From assembly GCF_043641665.1 (NCBI RefSeq), contig NC_092180.1:12269891-12333890 (forward strand): a stretch of 64,000 nt of DNA, given 5' to 3'. Under the pieces are notes generated by a model. That model searched no databases, was not told the DNA's origin, and was given only the letters and a program-made list of their open reading frames with translations. This stretch comes from Enoplosus armatus. Lineage: Eukaryota > Chordata > Actinopteri > Centrarchiformes > Enoplosidae. The position numbers and the translations under genes are program-made. Shown one piece after another: positions 302-64,000 of the stretch (positions are counted from its first letter, which is position 1; every line of letters begins with the position of its first letter).

Positions 302-390
302 CTGGAATGGAATCACAAGGTTGACAGTGTCGCCAACTTTCCTGATGAGCGTCTGGCGGAGATTTCTGGGGAGCCAAATTTTAGGGCGTT
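302..390 (-). CDS. mybpc3: mybpc3 exon 27: start of Ig domain C8 (last exon in window)
   Basis: Encodes (Q)[20 protein letters not shown] then TVNLVIPFQ, with a donor at 301 (CAG|GTGCAG). It matches the opening of C8 (human [20 protein letters not shown]). Bases 1-301 are intron. The gene continues to the left of the window. Confidence 0.9.
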
Positions 391-3300
391 CTGTGAAAGA
401 AAAAACACACAAAAAGAGGCATGACAGGGACTGGAAAATGGAAGAAGGAAGTTTAAATTAGGAGGAAATATTAATATTTAAATTAGGAGAAATATTTGGC
501 TATATGAGATGTATTGGTTGTCATGTCTCAAGTGTTGAAACTAAAGGAGCAGAGAGAGTCGTCAAAAGTTTCTAATCTATAAATACTCACGCATTATCTC
601 TCTGATGGTGACAGGTTGAGCCAGAGTGGTAGGAACACTGGGCCCTGCCATGTTGTAGGCTCGCACACGGAACTGCAGCTTGTCTCCGGTGGTGAGATCT
701 CTGACGATCATCGATGTCCGCTCGGTCAGACCCTGAATGGCTGGTATCCATTCATCCGCTGCGACCAGAAAAACACACAGCTAATTAAAACGACATGATT
801 CACTAGACTTCAAATGTTACACTGGAACCAAAGTAAAAAATAGAGGTAGAAGGTCATCGGAGCCTCTATTTTGTTATAATACAGCATATCATCAGATGTT
901 TATTGTGTATGGTGGAGGCTGGTGAGAGAAACAACAGTTCATGACAGCAAATAAAATTCAAAAGGTCATTACAAAGGTTAGTGTGATCGTATGATCACCA
1001 TGCTGTCGGCCTAGAGGCAAGAAAAATGCTATCTAAACTGACATAAAACTGACATCGAAACTTTTGGAAAAAAACATTTTGCTCTGACTGTTTGCTCATA
1101 GCTGAGAGCCTTTGAGGTTTAAGACTATTTGTAAAACTTATTGCTCAGATAGAGATCAGTCGCTGAGCTTCACTGCCATTAACTGATTGTTTGTATATAA
1201 ACTTTGATGATATACGCTATAAAAAACCTTCCTTATCAGAGGCATGCAGGCGGGTGGCTCCAGCACTTACTGCCCTCCTTGCAGTACTCAACCCCATAAC
1301 CCTCGAGTTCAGCTGAGCCGATCCTCTCAGGCGGCCGCCACTTCAGCGAGATGGAAGTGTCACTGATGTCGTCGACGCACAGTCCAATGGGCTCACTTGT
1401 AGGGGCTGAGAGTGAGGCAGAGGGCAGATGAATGGGCTCAGTTAGTCAGTTAGAGCATTACTAAAATACATTCAGAGTGAATTACTGAACAAGTGGATGA
1501 ACCTGATCAGGAATTAACAAATTATGTAAAGTAACAAAAACCCTCACAAAGCTTTGTAACAGCAAAGAGTGCTTGAATGCTGTCACCATCATCCATTACA
1601 ACTTTTCTTTTGCCACAGCAGCAGCATCACCTAATTATCCCGTGAAGGTTTCATTTCAAACATACAGTATCTTCATGAACCACCATCGGATGACGAATGA
1701 GAATGAGAGAGAATGAGTACATGAGTACAGCAGAGGAAATACAACAAAACCAAAACCAGGTTTGTCCAGGTCACCAAAGTTTGTCTACGTGGTTATATGG
1801 GCCTGGTGGCTGCTGTTTCTGTCCACATAATCTTAAATGTGCCGTAATTGCAAGTTCAGTTGAAGTAGTGTAGGTGTTTATCATATTTTTGGTTGGTGAA
1901 ACGGCATCGACTGCAGCTGGTGTGCAGTGAAACACGTGTGTAGCTGTATGTTTAACATCAAAAAATGTTGGTTGTGTGAGAGTTGACAGTTGACATTTAA
2001 CTTACTAAGAGTGACGAAAGTGAGTATATATGTAACTTAACACCAGACTGCTTGATCCTGTCGACAGTCCTAATTCAAACAACAAAGACAATATTAATTT
2101 CAATATCAAATATTTGTGGTTGTGTTGTCAGTTATGAAAACAGTCTATTGGCCTGTAAGCCGGCTGATGTCATCCCGTGAAAGATGAGCTGTCTGACTGA
2201 CCCGGAGTTCACGGCTGGGCTGAAGTCTAAGTGCCTGGCGTGCTCTCTGTCCCGCAGGGATGAAATGGCATGATTTTAGTTTGCATTAAAAGGCTCTGGT
2301 TCATCAGTTACTTCCCATGCATTGATTTCACCGCAGAGGCGGCAAAAGCAAACAATCAATGTTGCAACAGCTTTAGCTGCAGAGACTAAAAGGTCTTGTT
2401 TTCAAGTAATGACGAAGCAATATTATTATTACAGTGTTAAGCATTGGGTTTTATGACCGCTACCAATTTACAAGCTTTTGTATGTCTATTGTAAAACTGT
2501 AGGGGTCAGGAGGAATTATGGAGGGGAAGAAAAGATGTATAATTGACAGCTAATAGAGATGAATAATGGTCATAGGTTTCTAAATGCCCATTTAACTGTT
2601 TTGTGTGAGAAACTAATTCAGTTAAATTGCAGGGAATGATTCCTGATGACACATTGAAAATGACACTTCTGTTTCATTATATCAAACACACCACTTGGGC
2701 GCCTACTTTAGCACTAATTATTCATTTGTCATTTTGAGGCAAAAGTTGAAGCACATCTGGAGCAGTCACCTCCACCAGCGAGTAGATTCATACATTTTTG
2801 CAGCTTGGCTTTGAACAATTAAAGTATGGAGAAATGTTTTCCCACAAAACAGAAGATATCAACACACACTGAATCTAAGCTTCTGAGGTAATATTTAGTC
2901 AACCTTATATTTTCATGTTGTTGCAACTTGTTGACAGCATGAGGTCAGACTGAGAGGTGTTGAGTTTAAGTCATGGCCTCGTCGTCACTAAGGCCAGGAC
3001 TGGAAACATGGAAACACCTGTTAGAGGTCAAGGGTTTCCTCGCATGTAGAAAGTCACAGCTTGTTTGAACAGTAGCTCAGGGCAGTCTGGACAAAAGGTG
3101 CGGAGTGAACAGCAATTCAGATGTGTTTTAAAAAAGGAAAAACAGACTTCTTTTTTGACATCATCACGATCAGACACTTCAACAGCACGATTACTAAACC
3201 ATGCTCAGCACTTTCAAACATGTACACCACTGAAAAATGAGGGGCTGGTATATGCAGCCAATTTTCCCATTAATGTTGTTCACACATAAACAAAATTAAG

Positions 3301-6300
3301 TTTCATTTCTAATTCTAAAACCCACATGATAATCCAACATCTCAAAATGAATAATGCCTACTACCAACAGGTTCTGGCTCTGGTTTAGCGGCAGGGGTGG
3401 GCTCCGCAGGGGTCTCCTCTGCAGGGGGACCACTTTCTGCTGGGGGTGTCTCATTCTCAGCTGGAGCTCCCTCTTCTCCGCTGGGGGCTGCCTCTGCTGG
3501 TGGTTCACTACTGGCATCTGGTTCCTGTTGCACCTCAGGAGGTGGAGGTATCTCTGTCTCAGGCTTGCTGGCTTCCACCTCTGCTGGAGCAGCGGCCGGT
3601 TCCACAGGTTTCTCTTCTTCCACTGGCTTCTTCTCAGCCGTCTTTGGAAGTTTGGGCTTTGTCATTCTTTCTCAGTGATTAGCAACCCTGCTGATGATTG
3701 AAGCTGGTGGTTTTACCTCTACTGCCAAATGCCTTGCTCTAACCTATGCTCTCATTCTCCCTTGCACACACACTTGTTCTCTTCACTATTGTCTTTGCTG
3801 TAGTGGCAACAATGCTCCCTCTGGAGCAGCCTCCACAGTAGCGTGAACCCCTCTGTGTTAAGCAGCTGGTCCCAGCCGAATCGAGCGCTTCCAGGCCATT
3901 ATTTATAGAGAGGGATGCCACAGATAGTTTCCTAATCAGCTGTCTTACAAGCGATTGGCCATCTGGATACAATGATGTTCCCTCTTAAATCAACAAGTGG
4001 AGAATGAAATGGTACTTAAAAATCAGTGATAGACTGAGAGACAATCCGAACCTGAGCCCCTGTTTTATAGGATACTGTCAAGCTAGTAAGGAAGCAATTT
4101 GTCCATTCTCACCCATGTATATTCTCTCTCAGCGCCACTGATGTTGGTGAAGCACAGAACAAAACTGAGTCATCAGCATACATAACAACATTGGCATTTT
4201 TAACAACATATGGACCCAAGCAACTTCATTGTGAACACCGAAAGATATTTTTTGCTGTCAGAATAACTGCCAACACTCTTCACTCAAGCATGAGCTTAAG
4301 GTGAAAAAGCACAACATTTGAGCTTGGCAACAAGAATACTGTGGTCAATGACATCCAAAGCTGCAGTAAAATCCAAGAGCACAGCCCCAACTAGTTTCCT
4401 GTCATCCAAATATGATTGATCAGTCGTGTGTACTAATGCAGAACTAGTAGAGTACCCTGGACTATAAGCATGCTGTGCTTTTGTAAGTGTCCGTTTCTAC
4501 TAAAATAATTTAACATTTGATTTAAAATGATTTTCTCAAGTATCTTACTCAGCACAGGGAGTATACTAATGGGTCTACAATTAGAGCCAGTAAAACCTGC
4601 TTTTCCGTCTTTAGGTAAAGGTATGATTTTAAAAGTCCCACTGATTAAGCATCTATTAAAAATATGACAGGATTAAATCACCAACCCTGCTCTGCCTGAG
4701 CCACAGCGCTCCTTTAAAGAGTAAATGAACACTGTATGACTTTGGTGTGTTATTTCCTCTTTGTCTGGCACAAAACATTTGGCATCGTACTGTACAGTGC
4801 TACTTCCTTTGTCTGGTCCATGTAGTGATGTATGTGCAACCTTTATTTTTGTTACACAGACAAACATATAGCAAACATGACCCCATCCTGTCATGACCAC
4901 AAGTCAAACAGACCCCATGAGTGAAACCTTAGACTGACCAAACCAGGCATGACACAACCTCAGGGTCATCAAAAGACAGACATGTCTACTGTCGCTCATC
5001 CAGATAACAATCAATCAACATCCTCATGATACTGTAGTGCAGCGAGTGCACACAAATGAGTCAGTTTCTTTTGTTTCATCTTATGATAAATGCATGATCT
5101 ATTATGGAAACAATAAACAGCTTCTTTCATTGAAGATACAGTGGAGCAAATGTCTGAAAATGATTAACTGAATGGGAAAGTGGGATAGGAGCAGGTTTAA
5201 ATCTGTCTGTAAAGACTCACCGACTGGCACGAACGGCTGTGAGGCCGGACTGTGGCGAGACATGCCGATGCCGTTGACAGCATAGACTCGCATCTCGTAC
5301 GCCACTCCTTCAATCATCCGCTTGGCTTCATAAGTTGTTTCAGGATAAGGGTCAAAATTCAGTCTCATCCACCTGTAGCTCTTTGTCTTCTTCCTCTCCA
5401 GCACATAGCCTGAGAATTAAAATGATGTTGTTGGTATCAACTGGTCAATGTCCAAACAATTTAAATAAATTGAGCATTTTAATGTGTTTTTACCAATAAC
5501 TGGCTGTCCACCATCAAACAGAGGGGGGTCCCACTGGACAACACAGGAGTCCTCTGCCACGCTGAGGATTTTGACAACCTGGGGAGGATCTGGAACATCT
5601 GGGGGAAAACATTGCTCACAGTTACAGTTTTCTGAAGAACTAAAATCCATTTGGCATCAAATATTTTAGCTACATGGCGTGATTGTGCTCCTTTGATTGC
5701 TACTTGGGTTATGTGTGTGGTAATTGGCTTATCTCTACATGGTGATGGTAATGAAAACCGACTGCTCTCATTAAAATGAACAGGGGAGCTCCATCTTACC
5801 GACAACTTTCACATTGATATCTGCGGTGTCCTCCCCAGCAGGGTTTCGAACCACAACGGAGTAGATTCCCTCGTCCTGCCTCTCTGCCCCCTCGATGGTG
5901 AAGACACAGTGTCCTTTGGTGGTTTCCACATGGACCCTACTGTCTCCGTCTGTGACGACCTACGCAATGAGAACCAGAGAAGCAGAGTTACTGGATTGTG
6001 TCTGGAGTGTGAAGTATCTTTTATCTCCTCTCACTCCTTCACTGATTGATAGCTCTGTTGCACATACGGCAGCTGGTACAGTAGATGTAGTAGAGGCATA
6101 TTAACATCATGCCACTATGACCAGAGATGATAAATATGACACTTTCAAACACAAAATTTCTTGTGTAAAGTATTTGGGCAAAATCATGCTTTTCAAAGCC
6201 AATCACACATTTAATAATTGATTTAAACATAAACTCCAGATGCCACCATGCAAATGCATTGACCAGTGCTGGACTGTGTCTGAAATGACACAGAGTGGCT

Positions 6301-9300
6301 CAAAAAGGCTGGTTGGTTGATAGTAACTCATCACTAAAACAACCACAAGAGAAACCTTAAGCATGTAAGAGAAAAACAAAATACTTCCTCCTACGAGCCA
6401 CAGGAGCATCTTTTATTGCATCTGACAGTAAGAAATGGTGGACTTTTTCTCACTGTAGACAAGAGGCAGTTAATCTGGCCTGTGCCTGTTTGATTTTACC
6501 AACCCAAAATGTAAAATAATTCAGCACAACTTCAGAAAATTCATCATGTTACTTTATTTGATTATATAATGATGTATTTGAGTGCGTGATCCAAGGATTA
6601 TTTCACCATTAAGTCACTTTGTAAAGTTGCCATACAAAACTATACTTACTGCCCCGTTTCCTGTGACCTGTGTCTGTCTGTAAGATTCAGAACATGCTCT
6701 TACCTTACTGACATGGACGGATACTGAGTTGCACCACATGCAGTTCCTTTGACCTTGACCTCTTAGTGCTATGTGACATAAAAGCAAAACACACATGTAC
6801 AGTGATAGCAAATGGAGAAGTCTGCTTTGTATTTGTATTTGCCAGAATCTGTCTGTCGTCGTCACTGCTGCAGCCTGTTCTTTCTCCAGGGTTGTAAAGC
6901 AGTAAATCAATATAACATACGACCTGTTCAGTCAAGCAGCTGCAAGATCAATTATTTTGCGTTTTGATGGCCGCATATATTCTCATTTCACAACACAATA
7001 GCGTGTTATACATAAGGGGAAATGCATGTAATTTGCGTCTTCTCCACTGGCTGCATTTGTACATCCGCTACGCTACAGGTGAGTATTGAAAAACATGATG
7101 CCAAAGCTGTCAACATACTGACTTGGATTTCAGAGCCACAATACTACAAACAGGCACATATTCATACGGGACATGCACACTTACTTCCCCATCCTTCATG
7201 GTCCAGGAGGATGTCGGCCCTCCTCCCTCCTCTCCGTCGGGTTTTACAGAACTAGCCTACATTTGAGCAGAGCAAAGCGGTAAGAGCCGAAGAGAACAGA
7301 GAGGGCATGTGACCTCTCTTTCTCCTCAACTCAAAGATCAGCACACTGGTAGGCATCATTGGATTTAGCTGTAAGTAGCATTGAACTTATTCAGCTTGGT
7401 TTATGCATCTTAGTATCCCAAATGTATTAGCAGGGAGGAAAGAATTAGTTATCATAGCATCAGTGTGCAGAGCTAACCTGTGCCACTTAATTGTTATTTT
7501 AAGGCTCCAAATAGTTAGCTTGTAGCTTGTATTATATTGTTTAAATATGCTTCTGAATGTTGCATTGCAGCATTAGTAAGGCTTTCAAGTATGTTCCTGA
7601 TAGCAAATGAGGTGTTGTTTTCTCAGCAAGCCTCAGATTTCAGACCTCACCTACTGTGCTCTGGACAGTTGGTGGATGTCAGACGATGGGTGTGTACAGT
7701 AGCTAATTAATAACACAAGTCTGTTTGTCTGTTTTACCTTCTCTCCTTTGGTCCAGATCACGGTGGGAGCAGGATCTCCAGTGATAGGGACATCCAGACG
7801 CAGCTTGTTGCCGGCCACCACCACAATGGTTGACTCGGCAGTGCGACCCATACAGTCCAGGTGGATCTTAGGAGGATCTTAGCGAGTGAGAGAAACGGGT
7901 TAAAATGAATAGACCCTTGCGGTTCAGCTGGTTTAGTCTGCACGCTACGAGAGGGTGAGTTTGTGTTACCTTGGCGCGGCACGTAATCAATCTTCACCTC
8001 TAGGGAAAAAAAGAGAGTGGGAAATAGTTTCAGTTAAATTTATCTTGTGAGGCTGTGAATTGTTCATTTTGAAGTGTAAAAAGTAAAAGCATCGGTATTA
8101 CCCAAGAAGTTGAGTTTGGCAGAAAGGTTGAAAGCATGACCATCTGGCACAAAAGTGTAGTCTCCCTCATCCTCAGGTTTGACTTCATCAATGGTCAGTT
8201 TGTGGATCCTAAAAAGGTCAAAGGTTTTCAAAAGTTTAGTTCCCGGTGTCATGGGATATATGCAGCATATCTGACGCATGTTTAAACACATGTGTAAGTG
8301 TGCTCACCTGCCAATATGTGTGATGTTTATTCTGGCATCGGACTTGACTTCTACACCGTTCTTGTACCAGGTTCCTCTCACGTTCTCATCCGACACCTCG
8401 CACTTGAAAACTGCCTGATCCTTTGCCTTCACTGTGAGGTCGGCAATGCTCTGGTAGACCTCCAGTTCTTTCTCTACACAGTCAGAAAAACACAGGCTCA
8501 GAGTGCAGACAGACAAACCATCGAGGCCTTCAGACTTCAGAGGAGGTACTACAATATGAGACGACGGAATAAGATGCAATAAGATGATGATGTCTGAGGA
8601 TAATATGATAAAGAAATTAGATGCAGCTATTGTATGTGAGGATAATATGGTAATAATATGTTTGGGCGTGAGGTGCTCATTATCATCGTGCCCACCTTTG
8701 TGTGTTGTATCTTAGCAACAGACACAAGGGGGATAGTTAATTGGATTTATGGTAGAAAATAAAGTGGGAGGATATGAAGACCAGATGCTGGAGCTTCACG
8801 TTGTATATCACAAGAAACAACGTACATGGGAGTTATTAAAGTTATCCCAAAGAAATTGTTGTTGTTATCCGGGTGAGATAACTCACACCACCGCTCCTTG
8901 AAAAGGTTACAGGAGTTTTACGTCAGCTCGCTGCCAGGGAGGGCAAATAAGGTGGAAATGGCATTATAATGGGAGTTCTGCTGTGGTCTGAGGTGTTGAT
9001 CCCTGCTGCACGATGGCAGCTGGTAATTCTTGGCAGGCTCTGTGTTCGATTAACAGGCCAGATAAACTTAACTGCACTGAAAGCAGGAACAAAGATCCAG
9101 TTTAAATCTAGACACAACACCCCTGGGACACACACACACTCAGACATATATCACACATACACATGAATATATATGCAAATGTGAGAGTATATATATTCAA
9201 TAGGTCATTGATGGCTGTCAAGTGATGATCTAAAGTGTTTTTTGGTTCATAATGAATAATTCTGCTCTGTGAGCTAATGGTACTGAGATGAAATGGTTAC

Positions 9301-18300: not shown

Positions 18301-21300
18301 ACAAGATACGAGACACATACAGAGGCAACAGAAAATCAAAAAGAAAACCAAGTATGTTATGATAGAATGGAAAGTGTGATGCGCATTAATGACTGAACAA
18401 AGCAGTAAATGAGTGACTGAATGAATGAACACTGGGAGTTAGTGACTCACCCTCAGCTGGAGGAGCATCTTGTGCTGGGGCAGTGGTCTGCTCCTCTGTG
18501 GGTGCTGCTGCAGGCGGAGCAGGGGCCTTCTCTGGCTCTACACTGGACTCCCCGGGTCCATCAGCTGGGGCCTCAACTGGAGCTTCTGTGTTACCATTTT
18601 CACAGAGAAAACAAGTAAGAAGTACAATGAAAAACACCGGGTCTTTACACTGAACCCCTATTAACAAGAAGTAGGCTCCTAAAAGCAGGTGACCAATCTG
18701 CCAAACCTAATTAACATTTGTCTAGAAACTTTGAGAATAAATTAACACTTAATTTAATTTTGTGTACCAAGACAGAGTTTCAACATTTATACAATTCATC
18801 TATTTGATATACTTTTATACACTGTTTAGACAGAGTGAAAATATTCTTTGGCGAACGTTTATCTCCCAAATATTTCTTATGTCTTATCATCTTTGAACGG
18901 CCGACTGATTTTCCATGTGTTATCAGCTGCCTCTCATGCCTATCCTGAGCGCCAGTCAAGTGGTGGTTACTCATGAGGAAATAATGTGCTGGTGTGAGGG
19001 TCAAGGTCGCTGTTCAGACAGAGTAAGGGTGGCTATGATATGAGCCACAGACAGCTGTGGGCAGTCTCTTGTAGCACACTGGGCCCATTAGTCTGCAGCC
19101 TTTCTTCGAGATTTGTTTCCACCTTATCAAATCCAAACAAACGACCTCAGGGGGTCATACTGACAGACTAATGGTACAAATGTTGCTCTGTGACACACTT
19201 AGCATGCAGTCATTGCAGCATACAGTACAGTGCTGTTTATATTTAATAAAGTGCTTGACAAAATGATTGTGATCAAGCCAGCAATTACAAATATCCAGAT
19301 ACTTTAATGCGCTTCAGAGCTGCTGGTAGGTGGATTTTGTTTTGGTACCTTTGGACAGAACGAGGCTAGTTGTTTCCCCCTGCTTCCAGTCTTTATGCTA
19401 AGCTAACCTAACTGTCTGCTGGCGGTAGTTTCATATCTACCTTACAAACACAAGAGTGGTATCGATCTTCTCACCTAACTCTCTGCAAGAAAGCTATTTA
19501 GCATATTTCCCAAAATGTCAAACTATTCCTTTAAGAGCTGACACTTCTTAAAGATAGACCACACAAAGCTGTTTCAGAGATTTGTTGTTGAGCGGCTGTC
19601 AGAGGGTGCAGAAGGTGAGTTCATGTGCAGAAACATCAGGTGCATGCAGTGCATCAAGAATTTACTGCCTCAGTGGTTTTCTGCATTGAGTGCCTCATTT
19701 TGCTTTGTGCTCTGTGTCGACTACGCAGCAGCCGGTACGTGAGCGAGCAGACACCTCAAACACACAGCTGCAGCATCAAAGTCTCCCACCTGGCTTTGAT
19801 ACGACCTTCAGCTCAAACTTGACCTTTGATCCCCCAGCAATAACTGCATAGACATTGGCATCTTCCTTGGTAATAGCTTTTATGGTGAGGGTGTGCTTGT
19901 TTCCATCGGCTGTGATCATGTATTTGTTGCTGCTGGCAATATCCTTTGAGTTACACTGCCATTTTACTTTAGCATCAGGCTTCTCGGTCTCTGCTTCAAA
20001 GACCACAAAGGACCCTTCTTCTGCCTCCTGAGTCTTTGGTTTCTTGGCAAATGCTGAAACTGGAGAGGGAGGGTGGGTTCAAAATAAAAAGTAAGCCTTT
20101 TGAAGTGACCTTTTTTTAACATGTTGGGGACGTAATCAAATCATCTTGAGGAGAAAACACAGATATTATAATTGTCTTGATGAGAAGTTTGTTACATTGT
20201 GAGAAAAAACAATAACAGGTAAGAGTAGGCTTACTCTATGCACCACATGTGTTTTGTTAAATTAAATAACAGACCCAAAATGCAGTTTTTGTTTTTGGAA
20301 GTTTTCATACATTCAAAAACAAAAGCCACGCACACGAGAGAGAGATGGCGGGTAGGGAAGAGGGATAGGGACATTCATGTTTTAGTAAAATAAGAAGAAG
20401 AAGGCTGATGAGCTGAGCGGAGCTGCTCGTGGTGAAAAAGTACAGTGTTGTACAGTCTGCAGCACACTGGGTGGGGCTAACTGAAAACCAATAAATTTGC
20501 CTTTTCCCGCTCCTCACAGAATGTGAAAGCACGAACATCTGGCTTCATAATATGTGATATCTGTGTGGTCTTGATATTCTCTCACATAGTTTTTGTATTT
20601 ACAAGAGAATTCTGAATTCTGAAGGACACAGGATGAGCTTCATTTGGGGAGTCAAGAAAGTCATGAACAGAAGTTAAAAGGACTGAAAACATACAGGTTC
20701 ATTCAACATAAACACCAATTTATCAGAGTCATGACAAATGTATTTAATTTATGTATTTACATATTTACATAAAAGTAACAATACCACAATTCACAAATAA
20801 AGTAAAAGCATTCAAATTTTTATTTAAGTTTATTATTATGCAGAGTTGCCCCTTTTCAGACTGTTTTTCTATTCTATTATTTGATTATTATGACTAGTTT
20901 TAAGTAATCTATATATTACATGGTAGTTTTATCTATAACATTCATTGTACCTTATTAGCTGATCATATGTTTTATACGTAAAATATTAATACAACTATCA
21001 GAAAAATGCAAGTAAAAAAATACAGTATTTACCTCAAAAGTGTAGTGGAGTAGAAGTACAAAGTAGCATAAAATCAAGTAGAATACAAGGACCTTAAAAC
21101 TGTTGTTAAGTACAGTACTTGTAAATGTACTTAGTTACATTGTACCACTGCCTTAGAAGATGTTGGTCTTCACAGCATGAGCAATATCTGAATATCAGTG
21201 GAAAACACACTATAAGCATCCATCCTGTCCTCCTGATCAGGTGGGTAATTAAAGTCCATTCACTTCCATTAATTAGCACTCAATCAAAACATTAGCGTGG

Positions 21301-29074: not shown

Positions 29075-35837
<6,763 letters not shown>

Positions 35838-49823: not shown

Positions 49824-52800
49824 ATGAAAGGTGGAAGCTGTAGGAAGCCCAGCTGGGCTGTAGCTGCTCTGTTTCTCCCAGTTACCCTGCTGGTGCTGAC
49901 CTCCAGGGGGGCATCCAGCAGCCAGAAGATGACACAAACATCTATGGCTCATGCAACAGCCGCGTCTGCAGGACCAGGCCCCAGCCTGACGGATGACCTC
50001 CCAGGCCTCCGGGCAGTAGCAGACTTCTTAGCCAGCGAACATGCTCATGTTTGGCTCTTGTCCCTGGTGGGCTCTGTTGCTGTAGGCCTCAGTGGAATCT
50101 TCCCCCTGCTTGTCATTCCTATCGAAGCTGGAGCCGCCCTCAAAACAGAAGGTAGGAGATGACAAAGCAGAAGAGTTCAGAGTTCAAAGAAAGGGCCATT
50201 CGTCTGCCCTGGCATCCATGTTTCTCACACTTCTTACAACTATATACATAAAGTTCAAGCTCTTTTGTGGCTCTGTTGTAAATCTCAGCTCTCCACACTC
50301 CCTAACGAGGGAAAACAACCCCAGTGGGATCAATAAGTAGTTCTTCTGGGTCTTTGTCAGCCAGTCCTTGTCCCAGCTGCATCTTCTTCATCGTTTAAAA
50401 TTTTAAAGATCCCCGTGAAATGGACACTTCCTGGAAAACAGAGCATCTTCAGTGGTGACCTCATGAACTCCATTGCATGTTTTTCTCCATGAAGCATGAG
50501 CATGTCTAACAGCATAAATGAGATTGAAGGTTTTGAAAGCAGGCTGTAAGTGACGTAAATATACAGAAAACATTGTTTTTTGCCTCTATAAAATAACAAA
50601 ATCAGTAGAAAGAGCTATGTCTTGATTGACTGATTACGAAGAATGTCAGACTGTCAGTTAAAAGGTCACCCATCTCCACTCTAAAATTGAATCGAAAATA
50701 TACAGTGGGGAAAAATTATTGAAAAATGAAAAAAGACACTATATGTAGAATTTTAATATTCTCGGGTCTCGCACCCCCAGAGGTACTTCTTAAAACAAAA
50801 ATAACAGTCTACGGCCATGCTAGCGATTCTGAGGCACAGTGGTGATTTGAGCTAAAACCACCATTAGCATGCTAATATGCTCACAATACTAACATGCTGA
50901 TGTTTAGCAGGTATAGCATGCTAACATTTGCTAATTAGCGCAACACACAGTACAGCTGAGGCCGATGGTAATGTCATTAGTTTTGCAGGAATTTGGTCAT
51001 AAACCAAAGTATTGGACAGAATAAAAGTTTGACCTGATGATAAGCGCTGGATGAAAAGTTAAGGGATGACAAAAGTTATCACAATTCATCCTGAGGGGGA
51101 CACAGATGTGTGAACCTGTTTCATGGAAATCCATCTAAGTGAGATATTTCACTCCAAATCATAAGATGATGCTAGAGAAGGGGTCAAGGAATCACCAAAG
51201 GATACACTGTCTGTCAGGGAACCATGACTGTCAAAATGTACAAAATGTTGTGTCAATCCTTGTGATCTATGGTGAGATATCGCTGGAGATGTGAAAACTT
51301 TGACCTGCTGGTCACACTAGATGAGAAGTTGGACGACCACCAAAGTTTGTAGGATTCTTCCTTCGGGGGCCATGAATGTCTGTACAAAATATCATGGCAC
51401 TCCATTTAGCGCATAAAAAAACCTGAGCTGAGCGGAAACACTTCAATAGCCAGGCCAAAGTGACTGTAGGTCAGGCTGAGGCCTGCGGCCTCTCCAGTGG
51501 CCCCACCCACAGGAACGTGGCATTCCAGATGTATTTTAGGCCGTGGGTTTGCAGTCCTGACCGGAGGTTAGTCATTACTGAGGGAAATCCTAAAGCATGA
51601 ATAATGTCTGTGGAACACATGAGAGACAATTTTGTGGATTTGTGTGTGTGTGTCATGTTTTACATGTGAAAACATTATAAATTAATCAGTAGAAAAAATG
51701 AGGAGGGAACTGTAGAGCTGTAAAGTCTTGATTGTGGCTAAAAATTAAAGAAGATCACATGAAATTGATGTACAGTTCTTTATTAAACATACTTTGCAGT
51801 AATTGCTACCTTTTTTAAAAAAACAAAAAAAAAAAAAAAAAAAAAACCCAAAACATTTTCTTCTCGTTTTCTTTGTTTTGTCAGCCGGATGCCAGAAGCT
51901 GAAGCAGCTCTTGAGCTTTGCTATTGGTGGTCTCCTTGGCGATGTATTCCTTCACCTCCTTCCTGAGGCGTGGGCGCTTTCTGGCTCTTCAGGTGGGTCA
52001 CCTTTCCACCAAAACCATCACCACCATAGTTATTATTATATCTCTGACCCATTCTTCCCTCTTAAAAATACATGAAAATAGAATAGTTCTAGGTGAAATT
52101 GGCTAATTATATGTTTAATTATAATTGTATGTTTTATTAATTATAATATAAAACTATATTAATACTGCTCCATTGCCTTGTCTTACTAATAGTCTGCTTA
52201 AGACCTTCTCACATACAACAAAGACCAGTGAACCTCATTTGGGAACAGTAGTTCTTCAAAAATATTTTTAAATATGTTAATTATTCATTACATTGCTTTC
52301 AGAATGTGAATATTTATTTGTTATTATTATTTACCCAACTCTTGGTTTTAGTTATTATTATAAACAGTGTTGTTTGTCGCACTACCACTTGTTGTGTGTT
52401 GTATGTTGTAGCTTGGTGGTCACTTACTGCATTTATTCACTCAGTCTTATGTCTCTCTGCTTTCATGCTAGCTAGTAAACAGAACCACTACATGACCCAG
52501 GGCCTGTGGGTAATCGTTGGCCTGTTGTCCTTCCTACTCCTGGAGAAGATGTTTCCAGAGCAAGACAGCCAGGAGGATCCCACTTCAGATTCAGACCTGA
52601 ATTTTAACTCTGCTGTAAGTATTTCAGCTGAAATAGTATGTTTTTTAGAAGAATATGCCATCAATAGGAGTCTGATGGCACACAGACATGCTAATACAAG
52701 CCTCCACATATTTTTCTTTTCAAAGGTATGCTTAGTATTGACCCCTGTTAGTGCTTGGTTTGCATATTTCTGGCAGTGTTATAAGTGTTTTGGTGAATGT

Positions 52801-61471: not shown

Positions 61472-61868
61472 ATGGCCGCTATGAAAATATTAACAGGCAC
61501 AGGGCTCTTCTTGGCGTTCTGTGCGCTGGGGCTGCTCGCCATGGCGATTTGCACCGATTACTGGTACGAGACCGACGCGAGGAGACATCGAGAGAGGTGT
61601 AAAAACTATGCCAACAAGCGAAACGACCCGGGGTACATCTACATTTCAAACCACAACCTCCCCCTCCAGATGCCTCCAAAGAGCCTGGAGAGGAAAGGTA
61701 ACGGCCCAGATGCTGGTGCTCTCATCAGGGGGAAGCGGCACTTTCTGGCCGCGGCGTCTGCCATGGAGTCTCACTGCAGTCGGCAGTTTAACTCCACCAT
61801 CTCCGGGCTTTGGAGGAAGTGTCACCGGGAGGGCTTCGACCTGGAGACCGAGGACCTTATTTACAAAG
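61472..61868 (+). CDS. tmem178b: TMEM178B-like four-pass membrane protein, first coding exon only
   Basis: Encodes 132 residues and ends in phase 1 at a donor (TACAAAG|GTAAAC). A first membrane helix (GTGLFLAFCALGLLAMAIC) is followed by TDYWYETDARRHRERCKNYA, DPGYIYISNHNLPL, a putative glycosylation site (NST) and [12 protein letters not shown] then LIYKG. Human TMEM178B reads [20 protein letters not shown] and [20 protein letters not shown], clearly closer than TMEM178A. The GLWxxC motif places it in the claudin/PMP22-like superfamily. Relative to human it carries a few extra residues around KRHFLAAASAMESHC. The remaining exons lie past the right edge. Confidence 0.88.
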
Positions 61869-64000
61869 GTAAACACGAGCAGTCTGGTTTTTCTTGTGTG
61901 CACCAGGCCGTGATGCTCAGCGATGAGCTCACACCTAGCCTGACACAGAGGCCTCCTCTCACATTAATGTGCGTCTGCGTTTTACATTTTCTGGTTATAA
62001 AACTAGATTCGGGTGTCTTTTTAGAAGCGTATGTCTCTTCCCCCCCCTTTTTTTTTCGCTGTCCATGGTGCTGAGTGAACCCCCCTCTTCAGTCCCTGTC
62101 TGAGATAATGGCCGGTCTCAGATGCTCCTCTATTTTCTGAACCCGTTTTGCATCTTTTAAGAAATAACATCTTGTGGAGGTTATTTTCATGATGAATTGA
62201 TTTCATAGTGCAACAGAAGCCGAGCCATTGATAAATGTGCTTCAATTTTAGGCCACAGCAGAGAAATTAATGTACAGCCCTCCTCATTGGACAACAATGA
62301 GAAGCCATATTTCAGGCCTCACTCATTGATGCTATACCTGGACTGGACCAAGGTCCTAAAACTCAGAGAGGGGGACCACCCTGTGTAGAAAACATGGGTG
62401 TCACACGTTGTTATTGTGATTACAGCAGTCAAAGTAGAAGTAGGTGTGCCTTCACACATCAGTGTACTTAAAAACTGCACAAATGGTGCATTATTGACAG
62501 TTTTCTCTTCCAAGCATTGACTCTAAAAAAAATGTCAACTACACCATGTTGTTTCAAAATCCATCTATGTCTGAGCCTGCCCCACTTTATCAACCTAGAA
62601 GTAATACATAATGCCACTTTGTGTTAAGTTTAACCATTCGAATCTGCAACTTATGTAGCATTAAAAAAACATTTTATAGAATAGAGGTCAATCAATAGAA
62701 CACAAGATCTCTGAAATAAAACAACGCAGTTATGTTTTTGTTTACTTGACTGTACCTCTCAGCCCTATAGTAGTGGACTTTATGGCAACACTTGACTCCA
62801 ATGCAATACCTCTGTAACACCCACAGTACTACCTTTATGAAGCTTGTTATATTTTTGTTGACATTGCCTCAGAAAGGTGTTGATTTAGTCCTTTGGTCTA
62901 AAAAAAATACATTTGAGTATCTTTTACACATTGTGTCAGCAAAAAAATACATTTTACAATCCATTTACTATTAACTTTAGTGGCCAGAGAAGTAAATACT
63001 GTATGTAATATACTGTAAGTGAACACATATGTTAATCAATTTACTTAGCCTTGTCTGACACATATTAATACTGTATTCACAGATTATTTATAATGTCCAC
63101 TAGGTTTAAAGAGCCAGTTTTACGTAAGGACTAATAAAGTGGAAAAAATGGCTGTATTAAGCTTTCTTTCTTGTCCCAACTTACCTCTGTCATTTGCCAT
63201 GTGCACTATATATAAGTTAAATCTGCACATTACATGAGCTTGTACACATACATTTGAAACACACATAAATGAACCTAACTGATCAACATGATAGTTCTGA
63301 AAAAGCTGTTTTCAGAGCTATAATAGTGCGTGCACACAGAAAGCTACTCAAGCAGCTTAATTGTGATCATGCTCATCAGTTTTAACACATAAGAGAGGTC
63401 AGATGTCAACAGCCAGGCATATTTTGGTGGGATTTTTTACTTTAAATGACAACTTTGATGCACAGGTATAAAGGTGTCTAATGTTTGTCTAATCACGATT
63501 AGAACAGTCTTGATGATCACAGTGCTGGTGTGGACTCATATACCCACTGCTAAATTAACACTCAGAGTTTTGAACATATGCTCCAGATCTATATAGCACA
63601 TTTTCACATTGTTGATCTTTGAGTGGCATTTTATAAGTTCCTTTCAACATCATTTAATACTACGCAGGTAGTGTTAAATTGCTTTGGCTGATTAGACCTC
63701 TGCTCAGATTAAAGGTGAGCAGATATATGTTGGTAATTACAGGGAGACACTGATGTGAATTAATAATAATTATAAAGGTGTACTTTACAGGAACAGCAAA
63801 GCTAACAGGAGAGTCAGGTAGATGTCAATGAAGCGTCTGTAGATTACCACACAGTTCTGAGTGATTTTAAAATCACCTGTGTGGATCTGCCATAGGTGTG
63901 CAGGGCATCTAAAAGGTAGCCACCATTTTGTTAGTCATAGTAATTAAAAAATACAATTTCCTATGAATTGTGAAAGTTGAATCTTGACTTGAGACTTGAG
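61869..64000. other. tmem178b intron 1 (partial)
   Basis: AT-rich intron sequence to the window edge. No exon or clear repeat was recognised; a homopolymer-rich patch lies at 62041-62056. Confidence 0.5.

Follow-up and report, generated by a model that had tools for sequence, protein, structure and literature searches.

The window analysed here, a 64,000-nt (64-kb) stretch of Enoplosus armatus DNA, carries mybpc3 on its minus strand, from a C0 frame to the first C8 exon at the window's edge; the remainder of C8-C10 lies outside. The C0 frame (20078-19779) found its best matches in 8g4l (E 7.4e-46), 2k1m and 6cxi, all of them C0 of cardiac MyBP-C. Judged from its sequence, the C0 domain marks this gene as the cardiac paralogue, mybpc3. 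The neighbour sought beside mybpc3 was also found, in the form of an Ets-domain exon at 29078-29401 on the minus strand (Pfam E 7.1e-27), which we take to belong to spi1, the neighbour of human MYBPC3. The features of the gene that concern us are the following.

19779..20078, minus strand: C0-domain open frame, exon borders inexact; best matches are cardiac MyBP-C C0.
5221..5409, minus strand: final C6 exon, present in the long form and predicted to give way to the leader in the short one; acceptor TTCTCAG, donor GTGAGTC; ends in phase 1.
3899..3908, minus strand: MEF2 consensus YTAWWWWTAR and TATA-like box CTATAAATAA; candidate core promoter of a short isoform.
3666..3875, minus strand: putative 5' untranslated region, its start guessed at about 25-30 nt past the TATA-like box.
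3362..3665, minus strand: leader exon, drawn from conservation and fused-protein junctions; ATG at 3663-3665, 304 nt of it coding if the preferred donor, GT at 3361-3360, is used.
1406..3361, minus strand: intron of 1,956 nt separating the leader exon from C7, its limits set by the exon borders.
1271..1405, minus strand: first C7 exon, predicted as common to long and short forms; acceptor TCACTCTCAG, donor GTAAGTGC; the spliced product has an fn3 match here.
591..758, minus strand: second C7 exon, predicted as common to both forms; acceptor CTGGTCGCAG, donor GTGAGTAT.
302..390, minus strand: first C8 exon, predicted as common to both forms; acceptor TCTTTCACAG, donor GTGCAGTA.

The intron between the C6 exon at 5409-5221 and the C7 exon at 1405-1271 measures 3,815 nt, and the leader exon lies within it. 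Its frame opens at the ATG (3663-3665), with an in-frame TGA (3672-3674) three codons upstream, encodes about 101 Pro/Ala/Glu-rich residues and joins C7 in phase 1. The original prediction had described an ATG-started frame with an upstream in-frame stop and about 100 residues leading to a phase-1 GT, and each of these elements was found in its place. It was also correct that the leader donor shares its phase with the C6 exon ending at 5221, both being phase 1. When the leader was joined to 1405-1271, 758-591 and 390-302, the frame remained open for 231 residues, or for 232 with a donor 3 nt downstream. A 115-aa open frame on the plus strand (3354-3701) overlaps the leader exon in antisense and is probably a by-product of its composition. 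A tandem-repeat origin of the leader was rejected, as just a 15-nt unit in 2.5 copies was found (3391-3427).

The length of the leader frame is ordinary, because the ORF list of the 64-kb window has 14 ATG-initiated ORFs of at least 100 aa, one of them antisense to the leader exon. What lifts the leader above chance is its conservation, not its length. A single-sequence protein search with the 107-aa leader ORF listed six matches, five of them with E <= 7.4e-11 and the sixth at 0.34. A search with a profile of seven listed 11 matches at E <= 1.1e-3; five of these were new, P0001-P0006 having been in the profile (P-numbers are the row labels of our protein searches). The leader ORF is open to the donor in nine of the 11 listed predicted proteins, with lengths that vary while the frame is kept. 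The remaining two, P0007 and P0008, resemble each other closely, are cichlid-like near copies of the intact P0004 and are frameshifted in mid-leader, apparently by different deletions; the leader exon may be decaying, and the short isoform may have been lost, in some cichlid-like fishes. Absence or frameshift of the exon in relatives was to count against the original prediction, and on this point the listed proteins divide, nine for it and two against. P0002 lacks the window's in-frame TGA, and its frame extends 36 codons further upstream.

Leaders were compared in 23 sequences, comprising the window, nine ORFs and 13 proteins in which the leader is fused to C7-C10 (see below), with rows that are not independent (for example P0002/P0013 and P0004/P0015). 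Within a head motif, LPKTAEKK, the L, K and A are present in 23/23 leaders, and 22/23 have the E and the K that comes after it. Three rows start at a Met just before this head, and zebrafish and Xyrauchen have MTKPM at that place. In total the leaders span 82 to 179 residues and are P/A/E-rich, with net charges from -3 to -31; the value of -3 belongs to Xiphophorus (P0028), whose leader has drifted (P 11%) and has an odd junction. Overall, the leader has two parts, a basic head that hardly varies and a Pro/Ala/Glu-rich tether of acidic character. We expect the leader to be disordered; the structure of C7-C10 has already been solved. The 23 real leaders, which had themselves built the profile on which they were scored, reached a mean of 77.0 bits (lowest 23.8) compared to -8.2 (best 8.9) for 460 shuffles. 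These comparisons confirmed, at the level of sequence, that the leader exon is coding and conserved in ray-finned fishes.

We then searched proteins with the spliced window product, which was padded to admit longer proteins and scored on residues 1-231. With 7,999 candidates scored, this search gave 132 matches at E <= 1, of which 120 were listed. Among those 120, at least 13 proteins have the leader, recognized by its head motif within the N-terminal 80 residues, fused to C7-C10. These are from Seriola dumerili (P0012), Champsocephalus gunnari, the source of P0014, Pundamilia nyererei, Oncorhynchus mykiss, Danio rerio (P0017), Oryzias latipes, Ophioblennius macclurei, Xyrauchen texanus, Albula goreensis, Acipenser sinensis (P0025), Coilia grayii and Xiphophorus couchianus (P0028). 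The sturgeon record, P0025, is flagged UNVERIFIED_CONTAM. Two fn3 and two I-set stretches were detected in each of P0012, P0014, P0017 and P0025, and in the true MyBP-H P0047; of this FnIII-Ig-FnIII-Ig layout, the window itself shows the leader, C7 and the beginning of C8. In the thick-filament structure 8g4l, the cardiac MyBP-C chain is matched over its residues 857-1271 by residues 111-523 of P0014.

P0014 is an unbroken 536-aa ORF that opens with the leader and continues through C10; its contig measures 2,123 bp, and the leader-C7 intron takes up 1,956 nt in the window. The contig is best read as spliced RNA; a retrocopy would look alike but would also require such an mRNA. P0014 is thus evidence, in another fish, of a probable spliced transcript that begins in the internal exon and runs to the C-terminus. 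The other 12 of the 13 fused proteins are known as database entries alone, and gene models can be homology copies. A product consisting of the leader and C7-C10, as had been proposed, is borne out as a fused mybpc3 protein of other ray-finned fishes, once on a spliced-RNA-like contig, and would be expected for the window. Database models of about 500 aa called 'Myosin binding protein C3/cardiac' represent the short isoform in Seriola dumerili (A0A3B4TX22), medaka (A0A3P9HVM6) and zebrafish (nr). Such models are named mybpc3 alone, with no remark on a second start or a MyBP-H layout, and the short isoform sequence is already in databases as unremarked gene models.

The fused proteins also bear on the end of the leader exon, for which the original prediction stood only in part. 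There is a phase-1 GT at 3364-3363, which would give an exon end at 3365 and a coding part of 301 nt, but 3 nt beyond it comes another GT in the same frame (GGT A/GTAGGC, the stroke marking the exon end at 3362). Either donor keeps the reading frame. The junction that the second GT gives, ...xT-PTS(E/Q)P, occurs in 11 of the 13 fused proteins among the matches listed. In medaka and P0014 the second donor is the sole fit because these have H and A, respectively, where the first donor needs a codon ending in GT. The fused protein P0013 uses the first donor, and Xiphophorus P0028 is a clean fit to neither. Given this majority we favor 3362 over 3365, and the window's donor probably lies 3 nt beyond 3365.

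To place these proteins among the paralogues, we built a C7-C10 tree from 42 chosen rows (13 fused, 9 canonical mybpc3, 7 mybpc2-like and 13 MyBP-H, without mybpc1), in which paralogue labels came from names and our own reading and the window's 130-residue piece was left out. All 13 fused proteins fell together with canonical ray-finned mybpc3 (18 rows, branch values 99/98). Fused and canonical rows are interleaved, Coilia grouping with P0026 and the two Pundamilia rows with each other, and the sturgeon row branches first among the mybpc3 rows, as expected for its lineage. The 13 MyBP-H rows occupy their own side of a branch (100/99), and the C7-C10 of the fused proteins is not in their clade. 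With the fused rows inside mybpc3 and MyBP-H apart, the gene is mybpc3 and not a hidden mybph. The window piece has its best fused match in Seriola P0012, with 123/130 residues identical. Separate MyBP-H proteins (mybpha/mybphb) were returned by the same spliced-product search from zebrafish, herring and many other fishes, which leaves the suggestion of a fish-specific substitute for MyBP-H unsupported.

The leader itself was also compared with those of MyBP-H. On the profile of the new leader, 57 MyBP-H leaders taken by pattern scored a mean of -5.2 bits (best 7.8) versus -14.3 (best 5.4) for their shuffles. We rejected homology between the two kinds of leader, which was not detectable in these scores; the small excess can be attributed to composition and the basic head.

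These results weigh unequally on other explanations of the exon. That the leader comes from a separate MyBP-H gene, with the window or its matches mis-assigned, is suggested by the like layout and the like leader composition. Yet the window exon lies between C6 and C7 of a C0-bearing gene, and the leader motif occurs in no MyBP-H-like entry among the 107 other matches listed. We rejected this explanation on the clustering of the fused C7-C10 with mybpc3 in the tree and regard it as very improbable. An open frame that arose by chance and has no product would fit the many ORFs of similar length in the window, but it is contradicted by the conserved leader and by the fused products in databases; rejected on these grounds, it retains a negligible probability. 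The exon could instead be real but near-neutral, yielding a low-level transcript and a protein of little effect, kept by chance and lost in some lineages. The two frameshifted copies (P0007 and P0008) and the drifted Xiphophorus leader are in keeping with this, as is a leader identity far below that of C7+C8a: 72/97 versus 123/130 between the window and Seriola, and 44/97 versus 108/130 between the window and medaka. Against it, the open frame and the fixed head recur in percomorph and other fish groups as well as in the flagged sturgeon record. We group the leader-bearing fishes, on our own assumption, as otophysan, salmonid, clupeiform, elopomorph and percomorph. Near-neutrality is in our judgment unlikely.

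We also considered where transcription begins. The element CTATAAATAA is the sole exact MEF2 match on the minus strand in 4300-3300, and E-boxes lie near it at 3942 and 3868. The MEF2/TATA box carries no statistical significance, since the two strands of the window together hold 56 matches to MEF2 and 7 to MEF2 and TATA jointly. The same exon and protein could also arise from the main mybpc3 promoter, through a non-coding 5' exon spliced to the leader and without any internal promoter. Between 3900 and 3660 there are 29 AG sites, and the pyrimidine content upstream of them peaks at 60% (3691 and 3688), compared to 65-85% for four genuine mybpc3 acceptors; another genuine one gave 60% but was one base out of register, 2/6 control coordinates being shifted in this way. 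If the out-of-register acceptor is counted, 3691 and 3688 come within the range of real ones. The purine-rich stretch right upstream of the ATG and the joint MEF2/TATA-like box at 3908, whose distance fits, both argue weakly against such splicing, which we consider possible but rather unlikely. An internal promoter in the C6-C7 intron, about 200 nt upstream of the ATG, is the most likely arrangement on this analysis. Just upstream of the supposed promoter lies a reverse-transcriptase-like remnant (4454-4621, minus strand; RVT_1 E 0.0041, under the Pfam cut-off), probably a decayed LINE.

We consider it likely that mybpc3 has a second first exon, from which an internal start would give a short isoform of leader and C7-C10 with the docking part of MyBP-C. 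Transcription would begin inside the C6-C7 intron, about 200 nt before the ATG, and the leader exon would join the first C7 exon in phase 1, as is seen in relatives. The predicted product, leader plus C7-C8-C9-C10, has the layout of MyBP-H. According to passages of PMC7109175 and PMC10073172, MyBP-C is anchored to myosin tails and titin by C7-C10, and C0-C2 is a functional region. The short form would retain that anchor but, without C0-C6, would have neither the reach nor the regulatory end. By occupying sites where MyBP-C docks, as an unregulated partner or one tethered in another way, it could reduce the amount of full-length cMyBP-C on each thick filament in certain fibres or stages. The basic head on its acidic, flexible tether may contact a neighbour.

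The short isoform appears to be at least as old as the ancestor of most living teleosts, and as old as the sturgeon-teleost ancestor if the flagged P0025 record holds. None of the leader proteins, at least 13 among the matches listed, is from a tetrapod, shark or coelacanth, in searches that were word-limited, capped at 7,997 and 7,999 scored candidates and not aimed at these groups. Passages of PMC9330239, PMC4667402, PMC4558960 and PMC8061045 name mybpc3 in skeletal-muscle or jaw lists of fishes, with isoforms not separated, and in PMC9330239 a slow-type protein is tabulated under the name mybpc3. For these reasons we draw no inference about tissue.

The proposed isoform has several relatives among known proteins. 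It shares its gene and C7-C10 with full-length cardiac MyBP-C, from which it differs in lacking C0-C6 and in having another N-terminus and probably another promoter. MyBP-H resembles it in its length of about 500 residues and in its layout, a basic-headed Pro/Ala-rich leader and then FnIII-Ig-FnIII-Ig equivalent to C7-C10; unlike the short form, MyBP-H has its own gene and its own clade, and its leader starts MPAKPAPIKK... MyBP-HL (MYBPHL) is described in part of PMC6620353 as mainly atrial in humans, encoded by its own gene and having C-terminal domains in common with MYBPC3. Both it and the mybpc3 short form are short and built of C-terminal MYBPC3-type domains, but MyBP-HL comes from a gene of its own. 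As a working model we use titin Cronos, which is likewise a C-terminal sarcomere isoform started inside its gene. In zebrafish ttna, according to passages of PMC4720518, Cronos has a conserved intragenic promoter and partially rescues N-terminal truncations. Cronos is a different protein, and its promoter and product were demonstrated experimentally, whereas those of the mybpc3 short form are inferred. In a literature search that lay largely outside subscription papers, no account was found of a fish mybpc3 isoform with an internal start.

MYBPC3 is the commonest gene behind inherited hypertrophic cardiomyopathy, and fishes serve as models. Passages of PMC9408294 describe a zebrafish mybpc3 knockout with a stop placed in exon 2. 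If the internal start holds, this allele should still yield leader and C7-C10 (P0017 being the zebrafish short form), and the residual protein could make the phenotype milder or distort it, in the way that Cronos acts for titin. A short mybpc3 form may be going unnoticed in fish models of heart disease. Such a form would also offer a natural test of the anchor when the regulatory end is missing, and would show in concrete terms how a MyBP-H-type protein can emerge from a MyBP-C gene.

The idea that this locus illustrates how MyBP-H arose is possible: the domain cut point is the same and the leader make-up is alike, but homology between the leaders is not detectable. In the portions of PMC9272480 that treat its evolution, MyBP-C is discussed without MyBP-H. 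A double output of mybpc3 might be an old trait of the MyBP family, MyBP-H being a duplicate that kept the internal start alone; we offer this tentatively, as an idea with little probability behind it. If it is true, ray-finned mybpc3 would preserve an intermediate state on the way to MyBP-H, and one gene would supply fish thick filaments with mixed regulated and unregulated MyBP-C.

Elsewhere in the window, two open frames on the plus strand were noted. The frame at 49824-50159 has no Pfam or NCBIfam match and presumably resembles the start of slc39a13. The other, a 200-aa frame at 61472-62071, gave a weak Claudin_2 match below the cut-off (E 0.00087) and in our estimation resembles TMEM178.
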